This document shows, piece after piece, positions 20,767 to 62,648 of a DNA stretch of 64,000 bases. Both the position numbers and the translations under genes were made by a program. The notes beneath the pieces are model-generated. The model was given only the letters and a program-made list of their open reading frames with translations, made no database searches and had not been told where the DNA came from. Origin of the DNA: an uncultured Massilia sp. (GTDB lineage: Bacteria; Pseudomonadota; Gammaproteobacteria; Burkholderiales; Burkholderiaceae); assembly GCA_946481275.1 (NCBI GenBank), contig CAMLMV010000009.1, forward strand, positions 112,101-176,100. The letters run 5' to 3'. Position 1 is the first letter of the stretch, and each line of letters starts with the position of its first letter.

Positions 20767-20795
20767 TTTTGTGCCCACACTATACAGGTTATAAT
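20767..20795 (+). promoter_or_regulatory. Promoter of the B12-controlled receptor gene
   Basis: A perfect -10 TATAAT lies at 20790-20795, with a poor T-rich -35 region (TTTTGT, 17-bp spacing). It is placed directly before the cobalamin aptamer. Confidence 0.6.
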
Positions 20796-20799
20796 CTCG

Positions 20800-21008
20800 G
20801 GGTTCTGGTGCCCGCATGCGCGTCTGCGCGTGCAGTTAAACGGGAAACACGAAGCGGCGTCGCCTCCGGCGACATGCCAACGTGTGCTGCCCCCGCAACG
20901 GTAAACAAGCGTCGCCGCACGGCGACAGGCCGCCCCGACAGCCACTGTGCTTGCATAGGAAGGTGGGACGGTCCGTCTTGGAGCCCGGAGACCGGCCAGA
21001 CAGGGGAA
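20800..21008 (+). ncRNA. Cobalamin (adenosylcobalamin-type) riboswitch
   Basis: The leader of the TonB receptor gene carries the conserved cobalamin aptamer blocks in order. These are GGGAAACACGAAG, GTGCTGCCCCCGCAACGGTA, GACAGCCACTG and the B12-box-like GGAGCCCGGAGACCGGCCAG. Such riboswitches shut down translation or transcription of vitamin B12 uptake genes when cobalamin is bound. The expression platform follows as a separate hairpin. Confidence 0.9.
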
Positions 21009-21042
21009 GCCGGCGTTACGCCGCGCTTTTGTGTACGCCGGC
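21009..21042 (+). promoter_or_regulatory. Expression-platform hairpin of the cobalamin riboswitch
   Basis: An 8-bp perfect stem (GCCGGCGT/ACGCCGGC) with an 18-nt loop lies between the aptamer and the start codon at 21086. No U-run follows, so control of translation initiation is more likely than transcription termination. Confidence 0.5.
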
Positions 21043-31071: not shown

Positions 31072-34000
31072 ATGAGCGCGCTCATCAAAATCATCGGCAA
31101 GCAGTCCTATCAATTCGATCCGGTCGCGGGCACCTTCACCCTGAAAGCCGACGAGGTCGCCAACGTCGGCACGACAACGTCCGGCAAGGTCCGGCTGGAA
31201 CTCTGGTTGACGTCGGCCCCATGGGATCCGACCGGCTCCAACAAAGGCTACGAAGTCGCCGTCGATGCGCTGGGCGGGACGGATGGCACGCTCGACCCGG
31301 GCTATTCCATCAAGAACGTGTCGGCCACGGTCCCGCTGAAGCAACTGCCTCCACCCGGCAATTATTTCGTGACGCTCGTCGCCGCCGAATATACCGGCAA
31401 GGATCCGGCGACGGACGACGGCTACGTCACCGACAGTTCCTACCCCTATTCGAAGCTTGCGACGGTGCGCAGCGACGGCAGCATCGTGGCGAGCGACATC
31501 ACGTTGCCGAGCCTGAGCGTCAAGTCGGGCAACACCACGGAAGGCGATGGCGGCTCGCACGACATGACGTTCACGGTCGTGCTCTCCCACGCCGTGACCT
31601 ACGCCGTGTCGGTGAACGTGGGGACGCGCGGCGAGACCGCATACGCCGGCTACGACTACGAGCCGCAATACGAGAAACTGACCTTTGCACCGGGCACGAC
31701 CACGGCGACGTTCACGGTCCCGGTGCTTGGCAACAAGGACTTCGAACCGGACCGCGCGTTCGGGATCGAGCTCACCAACGCGGTAGGCGCCACCGTCGCG
31801 CCGCCGGGCACCGTCCCCGTCGGCACGACCGCCGGCCCGGACGACGTGACCAGTGCCTGGGGCGTGATCCGCGACGACGACGCGGGCGCCGGCCTGGTCA
31901 ACGGCGCGGTGATCCCGACCGACGAGTGGTTCCAATACCAGTGGTACCTGTTCACGACCCGCGTGCCGTACGCATGGGCCCACGCGACCGGCCAGGGCGT
32001 CAAGGTCGGCGTGTTCGACAGCGGCATCGACGCCACCAATCCGGATCTGGCGCCGAACGACAAGCTGGGCCTGGACCGTGCCGCCCTGACGCTGCAGCCG
32101 GGCGGCGCGCCGGTCCTGGCGAAGGACAACCACGGCACCGAGGTCGCCGGGGTGATCGCCGCAGCCAGGGACGGGCATGGCACTGTCGGCGTCGCCTACA
32201 ATGCGCAACTGGTGTCGCTCTACACGTCGTTTTCATCCCAATGGCAGACGGAGCTCGTCAACGCCTTCCATTACGCGGTCGGCCTGGATGTGCTGAACAA
32301 CTCCTGGGGCTTCAACCACCTGCTCGAGACCGGGACGAACTGGGCCTTCTACGACAATGCGAACGATCCCGTGTTCGCGCCGAAGTTCGCGGCACTGCGC
32401 GACCTCGTCGCGAACGGGCGGCATGGCCTGGGCACGGTCGTCGTGCAGGCGGCGGGCAACGGCTACGACTACGGCGACGACACCAACCTGCACAATTTCC
32501 AGAACAGCCGCTACATCGTCACCGTGGGCGCGGTCGACTCCAACGGCGAATCGTCCCACTTCAGCACGACGGGCGCGTCGATCCTCGTCGCGGCCCCGGG
32601 CGGCGGCGGCTACAGCGACTACGAAAGCATCCTGACCACCGACCGCACCGGCACGGCCGGCGCCAGCAGCACCAACTACGCGTTCGTCGACGGCACGTCC
32701 TTCGCCGCGCCGGTCGTCAGCGGCGTCGTGGCGCTCATGCTCGAGGTGAATCCGAACCTGGGCTACCGCGACGTGCAACAGATCCTCGCCTATACCGCGC
32801 GCCAGGTCGGGTCGCCGTCCAGCTGGACGGCCAACGGCGCCCACGACTGGAACGGCGGCGGCCTGCAATACGACGACGCCGTCCAGGCCACCGGCTTCGG
32901 CATGGTGGATGCCCTCGCGGCCGTGCGCCTGGCCGCGACCTGGGAGGGCACGCCGCGCACGTCCGCGAACGTCGTGGACGTCGTCGCATCGAAGACCGTC
33001 AACGCCGCCATTCCAGACAATACCGACAAGTTCGCGGACAGCGACATCGACATCGACAGCGACGTCGTGGTCGAGCGCGTCGACGTCGCCGTCAACATCA
33101 CGCATCCGTTCATCGGCGACCTCGAAATTGCGCTGACCTCGCCGGACGGAACGACCAGCTACCTGATGTACCGCCCGTCGCAAGGCGCGCTCAGCGCCGT
33201 CGGTTCGAACCAGCACGACATCCATTTCACGTTCGACACGGTGCTCGACTGGGGCGAGAGCGCGCGTGGGCGCTGGACGCTGAGCGTGATCGACCTCGCG
33301 ACGGGCAATACCGGCACGCTGGACAGCTGGAGCATCGACATCATCGGCCACAAGCCGACGGCGGACCACACGTTCATCTATACGGCGCAATACGCGCAGC
33401 TCGTCGCCGCCGACCCGTCGCGCGGCACGCTGAGCGACCCGAACGGCGGCATCGACACCATCAATGCCAGCGCGCTCGGCAGCGATGACCGCCTCGATCT
33501 CTCCGGTGCCACGGCCTCCGTGATCAACGGCGCCAACCTGACGATCGCGCAAGGAACGACGATCCTGAACGCGTACGGCGGCGACGGCAACGACGTCCTG
33601 ATCGCGAACGCGAAGGGCAGCGTCCTGCACGCGATGGCCGGCAGCGACACGCTGACGGGCGGCGCCGGCAACGACAAGCTCGACGGGGGCGCGGGCAACG
33701 ACAAGCTCGACGGCGGGGCCGGCATCAACACGGCGGTCTACCATGGCGCCGCGGCGAATTACACGATCACGAAGACCAACACCGGCTTCACCATCGCGGA
33801 CAAGACGGGCGCCGAGGGCACCGACCAGCTGGCGAACGTGCAGCGCCTGCAGTTCGCCGACAAGGCGGTCGCGTTCGACGTCGGCGGCGACGGCGGCCAG
33901 GCTTTCCGCATCTACCAGGCCGCGTTCAACCGCGCGCCGGACAAGGGAGGCCTCGGGTACTGGATGTCCGCGCTGGATCACGGCATGTCGCTGCTCGACG

Positions 34001-34263
34001 TGGCCAATGGGTTCGTCGAGTCCAAGGAATTCAAGGATTTGTACGGCACCAATCCGACGAATGCCGATCTCGTCAACAAGTACTACGCCAACATCCTGCA
34101 CCGCGCGCCGGACGCGGCGGGCGCGGAATACTGGACCAAGCTGCTCGACCAGCACGTGGTGTCGAATGCCGACGTGCTCATGAACATCAGCGAGAGCGCC
34201 GAGAACCAGGCGGCGCTGGTGGGCGTGCTGCAGAACGGCTTCGAGTACACGCCTTACGGCTGA
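31072..34263 (+). CDS. Large extracellular subtilisin-like (S8) protease with Calx-beta, P-domain, RTX and DUF4214 modules
   Basis: The protein has 1063 residues and no N-terminal signal peptide. The domains in order are an N-terminal beta region, Calx-beta (~145-275, ending VIRDDDAG), and the S8 catalytic domain with Asp in GVFDSGID (~315), His in DNHGTEVAG (~353) and Ser in GTSFAAP (~542). A proprotein-convertase P-domain follows (~640-765). RTX nonapeptides come next (GGAGNDKLDGGAGNDKLDGG, ~860-890), then a DUF4214 module (IYQAAFNRAPDKGGLGYW and a second copy). RTX repeats without a signal peptide point to calcium-dependent type I secretion. No ABC exporter genes are adjacent. This is probably a secreted degradative protease. 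Confidence 0.9.
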   Translation: MSALIKIIGKQSYQFDPVAGTFTLKADEVANVGTTTSGKVRLELWLTSAPWDPTGSNKGYEVAVDALGGTDGTLDPGYSIKNVSATVPLKQLPPPGNYFVTLVAAEYTGKDPATDDGYVTDSSYPYSKLATVRSDGSIVASDITLPSLSVKSGNTTEGDGGSHDMTFTVVLSHAVTYAVSVNVGTRGETAYAGYDYEPQYEKLTFAPGTTTATFTVPVLGNKDFEPDRAFGIELTNAVGATVAPPGTVPVGTTAGPDDVTSAWGVIRDDDAGAGLVNGAVIPTDEWFQYQWYLFTTRVPYAWAHATGQGVKVGVFDSGIDATNPDLAPNDKLGLDRAALTLQPGGAPVLAKDNHGTEVAGVIAAARDGHGTVGVAYNAQLVSLYTSFSSQWQTELVNAFHYAVGLDVLNNSWGFNHLLETGTNWAFYDNANDPVFAPKFAALRDLVANGRHGLGTVVVQAAGNGYDYGDDTNLHNFQNSRYIVTVGAVDSNGESSHFSTTGASILVAAPGGGGYSDYESILTTDRTGTAGASSTNYAFVDGTSFAAPVVSGVVALMLEVNPNLGYRDVQQILAYTARQVGSPSSWTANGAHDWNGGGLQYDDAVQATGFGMVDALAAVRLAATWEGTPRTSANVVDVVASKTVNAAIPDNTDKFADSDIDIDSDVVVERVDVAVNITHPFIGDLEIALTSPDGTTSYLMYRPSQGALSAVGSNQHDIHFTFDTVLDWGESARGRWTLSVIDLATGNTGTLDSWSIDIIGHKPTADHTFIYTAQYAQLVAADPSRGTLSDPNGGIDTINASALGSDDRLDLSGATASVINGANLTIAQGTTILNAYGGDGNDVLIANAKGSVLHAMAGSDTLTGGAGNDKLDGGAGNDKLDGGAGINTAVYHGAAANYTITKTNTGFTIADKTGAEGTDQLANVQRLQFADKAVAFDVGGDGGQAFRIYQAAFNRAPDKGGLGYWMSALDHGMSLLDVANGFVESKEFKDLYGTNPTNADLVNKYYANILHRAPDAAGAEYWTKLLDQHVVSNADVLMNISESAENQAALVGVLQNGFEYTPYG

Positions 34264-36804: not shown

Positions 36805-38166
36805 TCATTCCAATACATCCTGCACACCCGCCACGCTGACTTCGGCACTGCCTTCCGCCAGGCGGATGCGCAATACGTCCCGCGGCTTGATCTGCCCCGG
36901 CGAGTGCAACACCTTGCCTTTCGCATTGCTGATGATCGCATAGCCGCGCTCCAGCGTCCGCTGCGGGTTCAGAAGCTCCAGCTGCGCCGCCAGGGCATTC
37001 AATGCCTCGCGCCGCGCGCGCAACTGGTTGCCGACGCTCGCCACCAGGTGGCGCCGGTCGGATTCCAGCCGCGTGCGCAAGCCGCGCCAGTCGGGGCGAT
37101 GGCGGGCCCAGCGCTGCTGCAGCTGCGCCAGCAGCACGCCGTGGCGGTTCACCGGCGCGCGGACGGCATGCGTGAGACTGCTGGCCATGCCCAGAAGTTT
37201 CAGGCGCTGGTGCTGGATCTGGCTCGATGGACTCAGCAGGCGGCGCGACAGGTTGTCGAGGCCCTGGCTGGCGTCGGACAGGACGCGGTCCATCGCGCGG
37301 CGCAGGTCGCCCGCGTCCGCCTGCAGCGACGCGAGCCAGTCCGCGCGTGCCGTGGCGGCGAGCTCGGCGGCGGCCGTCGGCGTGGCGGCGCGCAGGTCGG
37401 CGGCAAAGTCGGCGATGGTGAAATCCGTCTCGTGGCCCACGCCCGAGATCACGGGCATGCTGCACGCCGCGATCGCGCGCGCGACGGCTTCCTCGTTGAA
37501 GCTCCACAGGTCTTCGATCGAGCCGCCGCCGCGGCAGACGATCAGCACGTCCACTTCGCGCCGGTGGGATGCGACCGAAATGGCTTCCGCGATCTTCTGG
37601 GCGGCCAGCTGGCCCTGCACGGGCGCCGGATACAGCACGATGCGTATGTGCGGCACGCGCCGCCGGAGGGCCGTCAGCACGTCGCGCAGCGCGGCCGCCT
37701 GCGGGCTCGTGACGATGCCCACCGTGCGCGCGAACAGCGGCAGCGGACGCTTGCGGGCTTCGTCGAACAACCCCTCGGCCCCCAGCTTCTCCTTCAGGCG
37801 CATGAACGCTTCGTACAGCGCGCCCACGCCCGCGCGGCGGATCGCCTCCACGTTGATCTGGTAATCGCCGCGCGCGCCGTACAGCGTGACGAGGGCGCGC
37901 ACCTCGACCTTGTCGCCTTCGCGCGGGGTGAAGCCCGCGTACTGGGCGCGGCCGCGGAACATGACGGCGCGCACCTGGGCCGCGTCATCCTTCAACGTGA
38001 AATACCAGTGGCCGCTGGCCGCGCGCGTGAAATTCGAGATCTCGCCGCCGATCCAGACGAGCGGAAAGGTGCGCTCCAGCAGGCGCGCGACCTGCTGGTT
38101 GAGAGCCGTGACGGTCAGTACGGGCGGGGCGGCATAGGCCGGATCGGCGTCTTCGGTGGGAAACAT
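36805..38166 (-). CDS. xseA: Exodeoxyribonuclease VII large subunit
   Basis: The protein has 453 residues from the ATG at 38166 (MFPTEDADP); the open frame further upstream runs into the non-coding repeat region and is not protein-like. An N-terminal OB fold ([25 protein letters not shown], in overlapping blocks) is followed by the XseA catalytic core ([46 protein letters not shown]). A coiled-coil C-terminal part follows, ending in [14 protein letters not shown]. With XseB it degrades single-stranded DNA to oligonucleotides. It is divergent from exbB, with the 1.2-kb repeat region between. Confidence 0.95.
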
Positions 38167-38283
38167 AGGGATGAGCTGGGTTGAACTGTCCACAAAAACA
38201 TGGCTGCGCGCAGTGTAAGACACATCTGCTGTAAAACAACAGGTAGTTTTTGTAAACACCTGATTTTTATAGTAAAACGATGC

Positions 38284-39259
38284 TGCCCGATTTCGATGCA
38301 GCAACCAAATTGCCTTACGGATCAATGGCTTGAGTGCATCTTCGGATACTTGGCCACAATCTTATCCACAGTTTATGTGCGAAAGTGGACAAGTCGGCGG
38401 TGCCCAAAAATTCAGCTTGAATATCTTTTCCTAGAGCAATCAAACACTTAGCATGCTGTCCCGGCCCTTGCTCACATCGTTTTCCACAGTTTATGTGAAC
38501 AGAGGTCCTTCAACGGGCGCATGCCGGACCGGTTTTCCACTGCCTAAAAATTCTACACGGCAAAAATTCCCTTTAGATTCAAGGACTTTGTCTTTCCTCT
38601 AGGGCCTTGCTCACAATCTTTTCCACAAAATTTGTGAAGAAGGCCGGCCGGGGCCGGGACGCGACTATAACCCAGTGGCCGGGCGGCTGGAATACCTGTC
38701 CGCCGAGCTGTCTTCGGTGTGTATGAGTCCCGGATGCCTAAAAATTGGGCTTGGCTAGAAATGCTGAGAGAAATCAAAGGGTTAGTAGGCGAATGATGTG
38801 CTTGCTCACATCTTTTTCCACAGTTTGTGTGAAAAATCCTGCGGGCAGGCAGCCCTGGCACGTGGATAGGCGCCTGCCTAAAAAACGTGCGCAGATTCCT
38901 TTGCCTTATGAATCAAAGGCTTAGGGTGCAGTTTGTGCGCTTGCGCACAATTTTGTCCACAAAAAATGTGAAGAAGAAGAGGGTTGTAGTCGAGCTCAAC
39001 CTTGCCTATTTTTTGGACTTGGAAATTTCTCTGAGTAAAATCAAATACTTACCGATTGGAAAGCTGATTTCTCACAAATTTATCCACAGAAATTGTGGGC
39101 AACTACACGCGAGGCGGGCGCCCTGACTGCCTTCGAAGTCCGGGCAGTCAACGCATCCTGACCTGCCGCGTTTTTACGCACGGAAAAATATCCCTTAAGA
39201 ATCAAGCTACTTGGCGCCTCCGGACGGCCTTGCGCACACTTTTATCCACAGAAAGTGTG
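38284..39259 (+). repeat. Array of seven diverged ~96-bp units with DnaA-box-like cores
   Basis: The 1180-bp gap between xseA and exbB has no supportable gene. It holds seven same-orientation units at 38284-38379, 38401-38497, 38541-38636, 38735-38831, 38875-38970, 39003-39097 and 39164-39259, separated by variable 21-98 bp linkers. Each unit starts TGCC (often TGCCTAAAAATT), has ATCAA exactly 33-34 bp before its final block, and ends in a 25-bp block CACA-N3-TTWTCCACA-N5-TGTG, usually preceded by CTTGC. The 9-mer is the DnaA-box consensus TTATCCACA in units 1, 6 and 7, TTTTCCACA in 2, 3 and 4, and TTGTCCACA in 5. Unit length stays 95-97 bp although the sequences have diverged. The function is unknown. 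Confidence 0.85.
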
Positions 39260-39346
39260 AAGAACTCTACTTGCCGCAATCCGGGCAACACGTTACATTG
39301 CGCAACTACCTTGTTTCATTGATTTTTACCTATCCAGGAGTTCCAT

Positions 39347-39952
39347 TTGCTCGCCATTCTTCAAGCCGCCGGCTGGCCCATCTGGCTGTTGCTGATCGCA
39401 TCGATCATCGCCCTGGCCCTGATCATCGAGCGCCTGATCTACCTGCGCCGCGAAAAGATCCTGCCGCGCCAGCTGCTCGATGAAGTCATCCAGGTCTATC
39501 GCAGCGGCAAGGTCACTCCGGACATTATCGACAAGCTGCAGACGAACTCCCCGCTCGGTGCCGTGCTGGCCGCCGCGCTGCGCAACGTCGACGCGCCGCG
39601 CGACGTGATGAAGGAATCGATCGAGGAAGCGGGCAGGGGCGTCGCCCACGTGCTGGAACGCTTCCTGACGACGCTCGGCACGATCGCGTCGCTGGCGCCG
39701 CTGATGGGCCTGTTCGGCACGGTCGTCGGCATGATCGAGATCTTCGGCGCGCAGAATGCCAGCGGCACGAATCCCGCCCAGCTTGCCCACGGCATTTCCG
39801 TCGCGCTGTACAACACGGGCTTCGGCCTGGCGATCGCGATGCCGGCCCTCGTGTTCTACCGCCACTTCCGGGCACTGGTCGACAGCTTCATCATCGACAT
39901 GGAACTGCAGGCCGTGAAATTCGTCGACGTCGTCCACGGTGCCCGCAAATGA
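39347..39952 (+). CDS. exbB: ExbB/TolQ-like proton-channel protein
   Basis: The protein has 201 residues from a TTG start at 39347, chosen because AGGAG lies six bases upstream and the first residues enter the first membrane helix (MLAILQAAGWPIWLLLIAS). It is an MotA/TolQ/ExbB-family protein with three helices; the conserved block is TIASLAPLMGLFGTVVGMI. With ExbD it couples the proton gradient to an energy transducer (TonB or TolA type) in the inner membrane. It overlaps exbD by 4 bases and begins the exbBD-lpxK-trm112-kdsB cluster. No tonB gene is adjacent. Confidence 0.92.
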   Translation: MLAILQAAGWPIWLLLIASIIALALIIERLIYLRREKILPRQLLDEVIQVYRSGKVTPDIIDKLQTNSPLGAVLAAALRNVDAPRDVMKESIEEAGRGVAHVLERFLTTLGTIASLAPLMGLFGTVVGMIEIFGAQNASGTNPAQLAHGISVALYNTGFGLAIAMPALVFYRHFRALVDSFIIDMELQAVKFVDVVHGARK

Positions 39953-62573: not shown

Positions 62574-62648
62574 GTCGCCATAGTACAATGGATAGTACAA
62601 GGTCCTCCTAAGACTTAGATGCAGGTTCGATTCCTGCTGGCGACACCA
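62574..62648 (+). tRNA. tRNA-Arg (anticodon CCU)
   Basis: A complete cloverleaf is present: acceptor GTCGCCA/TGGCGAC, D-arm stem GTAC/GTAC, anticodon stem AGGTC/GACTT with loop CTCCTAA (CCT), T-arm GCAGG-TTCGATT-CCTGC, discriminator A and an encoded CCA. Confidence 0.95.

Follow-up and report, generated by a model that had tools for sequence, protein, structure and literature searches.

A tandem array of seven DARS2-like, probably DnaA-reactivating modules between xseA and exbB in an uncultured Massilia

The intergenic region between xseA and exbB (38284–39264) holds seven repeat units, all on the plus strand; positions refer to the window, the whole stretch of 64,000 nucleotides that was analysed. 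Each unit contains an exact copy of the block CACA-N3-TTNTCCACA-N5-TGTG, starting at positions 38355, 38473, 38612, 38807, 38946, 39073, and 39235 of the plus strand, and a search of both strands of the window found no further exact copy. TGCC is located 70 to 72 bp 5' of the block in all seven units, and ATCAA is located 33 to 34 bp 5' of it in six. Arithmetic on the block positions gives units of 95 to 97 bp and linkers of 21 to 98 bp. The inner 9-mer is TTATCCACA in three units, TTTTCCACA in three, and TTGTCCACA in one. The initial annotation had described this plan, and its orientation, motif distances, 9-mer variants, and lengths were all recovered, with the single exception that unit 3 has TTCAA where ATCAA had been claimed for every unit. 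The features of the locus are as follows, with mismatches to the consensus in brackets after each Fis-like and IHF-like site.

36805..38184, minus strand: xseA, exodeoxyribonuclease VII large subunit (TIGR00237, E 1.3e-144, residues 24–451 of 459)
38284..38384, plus strand: unit 1 (HMM E 6.3e-20); Fis-like dyad 38285–38299 (2), IHF-like site 38320–38332 (1), DnaA boxes III 38350–38358, II 38362–38370, and I, inverted, 38376–38384
38401..38502, plus strand: unit 2 (HMM E 3.5e-15); Fis-like dyad 38402–38416 (1), IHF-like site 38438–38450 (0), boxes III 38468–38476, II 38480–38488, and I 38494–38502, which reads TGTGAACAG
38541..38641, plus strand: unit 3 (HMM E 3.6e-22); Fis-like dyad 38542–38556 (1), IHF-like site 38577–38589 (2), boxes III 38607–38615, II 38619–38627, and I 38633–38641
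38735..38836, plus strand: unit 4 (HMM E 1.2e-15); Fis-like dyad 38736–38750 (0), IHF-like site 38772–38784 (0), boxes III 38802–38810, II 38814–38822, and I 38828–38836
38875..38975, plus strand: unit 5 (HMM E 3.9e-21); Fis-like dyad 38876–38890 (1), IHF-like site 38911–38923 (0), boxes III 38941–38949, II 38953–38961, which reads TTGTCCACA, and I 38967–38975
39003..39102, plus strand: unit 6 (HMM E 8.5e-16); Fis-like dyad 39004–39018 (0), IHF-like site 39039–39051 (0), boxes III 39068–39076, II 39080–39088, and I 39094–39102
39164..39264, plus strand: unit 7, the unit nearest exbB (HMM E 1.5e-23); Fis-like dyad 39165–39179 (2), IHF-like site 39200–39212 (2), boxes III 39230–39238, II 39242–39250, and I 39256–39264
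39347..39952, plus strand: exbB/tolQ-family gene, used as the synteny anchor (NCBIfam tolQ 78.8 bits, exbB 55.7 bits)

The start codon of xseA is provisional, and its open frame extends to 38325. The tolQ model outscores the exbB model for the downstream gene, both scores are under the curated cut-offs, and the name exbB is that of the initial annotation.

The conserved core exceeds the 25-bp block by approximately 5 bp on each side, since both outer boxes, III and I, are complete 9-mers. The extended block consists of three DnaA boxes in the order box III, 3 bp, box II, 5 bp, and box I in inverted orientation. Boxes I and II face each other and box III lies behind box II in each unit, which is the arrangement of a DARS core, and the fixed spacing with box I opposite to boxes II and III is found in 7/7 units. 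Box II is of the TTWTCCACA type (TTGTCCACA once), box III fits TTGCnCACA in 5/7 units, and box I, read on the other strand, fits TGTGnnnAA in 6/7. The CACA and TGTG motifs are the ends of boxes III and I, and the separate protein that had been proposed to read the CACA/TGTG dyad is not needed. A unit HMM was trained on 190 units from genomes other than this one, taken from the nearer named exbB loci (L074–L119 and L133), the records of which are mostly titled with Oxalobacteraceae genera and in some cases only with Burkholderiales or Burkholderiaceae. It matched all seven window units (E 3.5e-15 to 1.5e-23) and gave one weak extra match in the window, on the opposite strand inside unit 4 (E 2.3); it had no match in twenty 20-kb samples of a relative's genome (G140). 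A matrix of the core, derived from 186 distinct cores of 61 named exbB loci with no E. coli sequence among them, scores the seven units at 34.6 to 52.9 bits and the opposite-strand place in unit 4 at 14.1 bits, and the next place in the window scores below 0.

The E. coli stretches used for comparison lie at the positions of DARS1, DARS2, and datA. The MG1655 DARS1 stretch holds the 25-bp plan with 1/17 fixed bases changed, the DARS2 stretch holds it with 2/17 changed, and the spacing and orientation are identical in both. The best alignment of the datA stretch to the unit core has 4/17 mismatches. The core matrix gives 25.7 bits for DARS1, 24.9 bits for DARS2, 3.3 bits for datA, and −0.2 bits for oriC. 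The maximum on both strands of a 4-Mb sequence was 3.0 bits, this background being a simulation and not the whole E. coli genome, and the runner-up in the E. coli stretches scored reached 7.5 bits, approximately 320 bp from the DARS2 core. The position of the DARS2 core is borne out by published deletion primers that flank exactly that core (PMC4585315), and that of DARS1 by PMC5742627, which gives its intergenic site at 0.81 Mb. The latter source places DARS2 and datA at 2.97 and 4.39 Mb, and describes DARS1 and DARS2 as having equal spacing of boxes I–III with box I opposite to boxes II and III. DARS1, in the bioD-uvrB gap, is a single-copy site that is reported to work without accessory proteins such as IHF or Fis (PMC4585315), whereas the array is multi-copy. 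DARS2 requires IHF and Fis, and its IHF sites lie between the core and the Fis sites (PMC4245941, PMC8682772).

The window units carry matches to both of these partner sites. An IHF-like site (WATCAANNNNTTR) begins at −35 or −34 from the core block, and a Fis-like dyad (GNNYANNNNNTRNNC) begins at −71 to −69. As consensus matches with at most one mismatch, the IHF-like site beside the core is present in 5/7 units and the Fis-like site beyond it in 5/7, and either count was reached by 0/20,000 letter shuffles. The weaker sites, with two mismatches, are the IHF-like sites of units 3 and 7 and the Fis-like sites of units 1 and 7. Among the 190 units of relatives, an IHF-like site with at most one mismatch lies at −37 to −34 in 126 (0–4 at five control offsets) and a Fis-like site, under the same mismatch limit, lies at −72 to −69 in 102 (4–14 at the control offsets). 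A 17-bp TGC-N11-GC dyad begins at −72 to −70 in 130/190 units. The loose Fis consensus has matches within the core too, at −3 (124/190) and +11 (122/190), and these are commoner than the matches at −70. Same-numbered units of five genomes, compared in three 1-bp registers with the best one kept, have a mean identity of 0.93 for the core, 0.79 for the IHF site, and 0.77 for the Fis dyad, with 0.50–0.65 for the spacers and 0.49–0.54 for the flanks. The plan is conserved across genera, which confirms the selection on spacing proposed earlier.

E. coli DARS2 (approximately 2.969 Mb, beside ygdT and mutH) has the same three-box order, orientation, and spacing as the array units, and likewise has core, IHF, and Fis in that order on the box III side (order from PMC4245941). 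It is a single 455-bp site, whereas the array consists of seven compact units of approximately 100 bp. The E. coli core/IHF/Fis spacing is not reproduced here: the IHF matches of DARS2 are at about −76 and −92 with Fis further out, in contrast to −35 for IHF and −70 for Fis in the array units, which also differ from DARS2 in their weak boxes III and I and in their neighbour genes. The units are termed DARS2-like, and not DARS2, because of this departure in IHF/Fis spacing. The looseness of the Fis consensus, the status of the IHF and Fis sites as consensus matches, and the spacing unlike that of E. coli DARS2 count against a DARS reading.

The array is nonetheless likely to be a tandem set of seven DARS2-like modules that convert ADP-DnaA to ATP-DnaA, judging from the sequence comparisons. 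The initial annotation had named a datA/DARS-like role among several. The DARS half of that proposal stood, on the core match and on the IHF-like and Fis-like sites in DARS2 order, and among the roles listed DARS-like reactivation is now strongly favoured as the predicted function. The datA half did not. A datA-like site would use IHF and DnaA boxes to promote the hydrolysis of DnaA-bound ATP, and thereby inactivate DnaA. The array units do share DnaA boxes and an IHF site with datA, but the datA stretch is without the facing trio at unit spacing, and the array does not resemble datA when judged by core similarity alone (the mismatches and core score given above). Minimal datA is reported to consist of boxes 2, 3, and 7 plus one IHF site with no Fis site (PMC5742627), whereas the Fis-like dyad is conserved in the units. 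A datA-like function is very improbable.

Relatives were surveyed for the unit at exbB, where the initial annotation had suggested looking for conservation. All 22 family genomes surveyed, from 11 genera, have one or more units upstream of exbB and on its strand (20 called by HMM, G006 by exact pattern, and G131 by HMM), and at least four units are present there in 19/22; G023, G059, and G131 have one. The named exbB loci surveyed were the best 80 of 417, and all locus counts out of 80 refer to this set. A core with at most one mismatch lies upstream on the exbB strand in 61 of the 80 and on the opposite strand in 3, and there is none on the exbB strand downstream of exbB. HMM units were found in 56/80, three of them without a core call, and either the HMM or the core in 64/80, a count that is not independent since many of these loci trained the HMM. 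The 16/80 with neither core nor HMM match upstream include three of the five named Herbaspirillum loci and Oxalobacter formigenes, and the upstream DNA of at least one of them (L153) is too short for a call. These 16 negative loci and the weak boxes III and I count against the DARS reading. HMM unit counts are 4–8 in seven Massilia-titled loci, 3–6 in five Undibacterium loci, 7 in each of five Janthinobacterium isolates, and 0 and 9 in two Janthinobacterium MAGs. Single units occur in two Noviherbaspirillum loci and in many more distant loci, some titled Rhodocyclaceae. In one locus (L041, genome G015), five successive cores are 245–246 bp apart in nearly identical surroundings, which looks like a recent tandem amplification.

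The exact core was found in 172/195 genomes of the family, 186/250 of the order, 97/134 of the class, and 51/140 of the phylum, where the family search pattern was slightly narrower and the genome samples overlap. A reversed control pattern had 0 matches in every genome row. Among the matches listed for genomes outside the family, exact cores lying within 1.5 kb of each other on the same strand number two at most, which is no more than an indication that the array is a feature of this family.

The constant relationship to exbB raises the alternative of transcriptional control, in which DnaA, IHF, and Fis would couple the expression of exbB and its neighbours to the cell cycle. The nearest exbB-strand core is 93–373 bp upstream of exbB in 61/61 loci with a core, a placement that also holds for the single-copy units of distant loci, and the rarity of opposite-strand cores points the same way. 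The unit just upstream of exbB in most loci thus fits a promoter role as well, which counts against the DARS reading. However, units extend more than 1 kb upstream of exbB, and as far as −2845 in Massilia rhizosphaerae (L077). The exbB-proximal core of that locus is at −111 and the other seven are at −1908 to −2845, leaving a gap of approximately 1.8 kb. Approximately 20 kb separates two units beside xseA from the single exbB unit in G131, in relatives the core also lies in the hemE-priA gap or next to a helicase gene of UvrD/PcrA type, and the genes around the E. coli DARS sites are unrelated ones. Control of exbB is quite unlikely as the function of the array; a promoter role of the exbB-proximal unit is possible and would leave the other units, and the elements elsewhere, unexplained.

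Tandem repeats of approximately 96 bp could also be an array of small RNAs, as had been suggested, or neutral leftover repeats. The array has five terminator-like matches where 1.8 (sd 1.2) were expected; units 4 and 5 hold four of these, and the other units do not share them. Paired changes from CACA to AACA and from TGTG to TGTT occur in 2/116 scanned units, and RNA pairing could explain them; so, too, could a DnaA-box dyad. Folding 20 units to a consensus gave 4 pairs without any variation and a covariation term of 0, promoter matches are at chance (1 versus 0.9), and there is no Rfam match at the array. Column-pair statistics on 117 units gave some pairs above the shuffled maximum (0.87 versus 0.24 bits) that link Fis and IHF columns, presumably through 1-bp shifts of both sites together, and no signal in the core dyad columns. 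Neutral repeats are opposed by the fact that conservation tracks the protein sites across genera. Both ideas, small RNAs and neutral leftovers, are scarcely credible.

The chromosomal position of the array was determined in nine genomes of relatives, with the largest contig taken as the chromosome. The array or the xseA/exbB-linked units lie at 0.275–0.335 of the chromosome from dnaA in 8/9 genomes and at 0.146 in G002. E. coli DARS1 and DARS2 are at a computed 0.33 and 0.21 of the chromosome from oriC; the DARS1 position is similar to that of the array, and DARS2 is likewise far from the origin. The array is a non-coding, intergenic site away from oriC as judged by distance from dnaA. The mnmG gene is 0.009–0.12 of the chromosome from dnaA in the nine genomes; it is near dnaA and the array is far, and the array is therefore not at the usual origin markers. 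This agrees with the earlier view that an ordinary oriC is unlikely, as does the score of E. coli oriC with the core matrix. Only 2–3 DnaA boxes with at most one mismatch lie upstream of dnaA in each of three genomes.

DnaA titration would make the 21 DnaA boxes of the array a passive sink that lowers free DnaA and leaves its nucleotide state unchanged. The number of boxes in approximately 1 kb and the variation of unit copy number between species suit this idea, and in E. coli a model in which chromosomal boxes titrate DnaA is actively pursued (PMC12371093). Strong boxes would be expected in a sink, but most copies of boxes III and I are weak, the commonest being TTGCGCACA (59/190) and TGTGCAGAA (70/190). 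Neither the rigid inversion and spacing nor the IHF/Fis sites are needed for a sink, and the core resembles DARS and not datA. PMC12371093 reports that boxes accumulate towards the origin, whereas the array is 0.146–0.335 of the chromosome from dnaA in the nine genomes. Titration is unlikely to be the main function, and it may coexist with a DARS role.

Further exact cores away from exbB were found in 20/22 family genomes, the two without them being G006 and G049. We read 32 of these elements in 19 loci. Seven loci (L051–L057) have the element between hemE-like and priA-like genes, as grouped by BLAST clusters with NCBIfam naming for L051 only, and four (L060, L061, L063, and L064) have it beside a UvrD/PcrA-family helicase-like gene; the remaining loci are L058, L059, L062, L065, L066, and L068–L070. 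The hemE-priA elements were considered as an oriC beside mnmG, which was rejected because the flanking gene is priA. Box II is perfect in 32/32 further elements, a reversed IHF-like site lies at −103 to −101 in 31/32, a Fis-like match lies at −72 to −69 in 16/32, and the TGC..GC dyad is present in 23/32. In the chromosomal comparison, a second element is 0.32–0.36 from dnaA on the other arm in three genomes (G019, G071, and G140) and 0.004–0.064 from dnaA in five of the nine; none was found in G049.

The set of distant exbB units comprises 22 units (L120–L153 without L133; L121 is titled Oxalobacteraceae). Eleven of them have a Fis-like site at −71, eleven have a reversed IHF-like site near −103, and six have both; a reversed IHF-like site at −102 also occurs in 20/190 nearer units. 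Because distant exbB units often share the layout of the further elements, the array units perhaps come from an older core-Fis-IHF layout through the gain of an IHF site at −35.

Successive units tend to share one face of the helix. For phasing, each genus contributed one locus and the window was added, giving 32 spacings; the strongest period of successive core spacings in a scan of 5–20 bp was 10.75 bp (R 0.49). This R was reached by 32/3,000 jittered sets, odds that are rough since the genera are related, and it ranged from 0.44 to 0.59 with one genus left out in turn. The signal over all 59 distinct spacings is weaker (R 0.31 near 10.95 bp). The periodicity hints at joint action of neighbouring units; the approximately 20-kb split in G131 counts against the need for one compact array.

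Genes for dnaA, Hda, and a Fis homologue were found in 22/22 family genomes and ihfB in 10/10. The Fis homologues are 37–44% identical to E. coli Fis, and those of G055 and G113 have one stop codon within the aligned range. These homologues show that a partner protein is available in the family. Fis and the DARS2 core have been called specific to gammaproteobacteria related to E. coli (PMC4245941).

In the proposed mechanism, ADP-DnaA left by Hda-driven hydrolysis would assemble on boxes I–III of the core, IHF would bend the unit DNA, and Fis would dock, following the E. coli DARS2 model. ADP would then be let go by the AAA+ domains that face each other, and apo-DnaA would depart, rebind ATP, and be able to initiate at oriC. 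With several tandem copies, the supply of ATP-DnaA would be higher and its timing adjusted, and phased neighbouring units may assemble together. The dosage of the array would double part-way through replication because it is approximately one-third of the chromosome from dnaA in relatives. We lean towards a broader model of an Oxalobacteraceae DARS array in which copy number, from 1 to approximately 9, would set the DnaA-recharging capacity and units on one face of the helix would act as a single assembly. A single older site linked to exbB, made up of a core, a Fis site at −71, and a reversed IHF site near −103, would have been rebuilt into compact Fis-IHF-core modules and tandemly amplified, and in Massilia-type genomes a second DARS-like site, at roughly the same distance from dnaA but on the opposite chromosome arm, would balance the array.

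A DARS-like core outside E. coli is already known. Sequences similar to DARS1 and DARS2 are reported as conserved in many proteobacterial species, and for these the accessible text of that source mentions neither an array nor a copy number nor a compact Fis-IHF-core module (PMC10380432). Among the matches listed by a literature search, there was no report of a DARS array and none of DARS work in betaproteobacteria. What is known of DARS function comes from two single-copy E. coli sites. The amplified units, split apart in one genome, provide a dosage series for relating initiation timing to DnaA recharging, and their repetition reveals which positions matter. The findings suggest that bacteria well outside the E. 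coli group also use the ATP/ADP-DnaA cycle of Hda plus DARS and that some bacteria may pace chromosome copying by an array of DnaA-recharging sites.

Other features of the window are a cobalamin riboswitch (20789–21014, plus strand; RF00174, 64.9 bits), a tRNA gene (62574–62645, plus strand; RF00005), and a 1063-residue open reading frame (31072–34263, plus strand) that, on inspection by eye, resembles a subtilisin-type protease carrying calcium-binding repeats.
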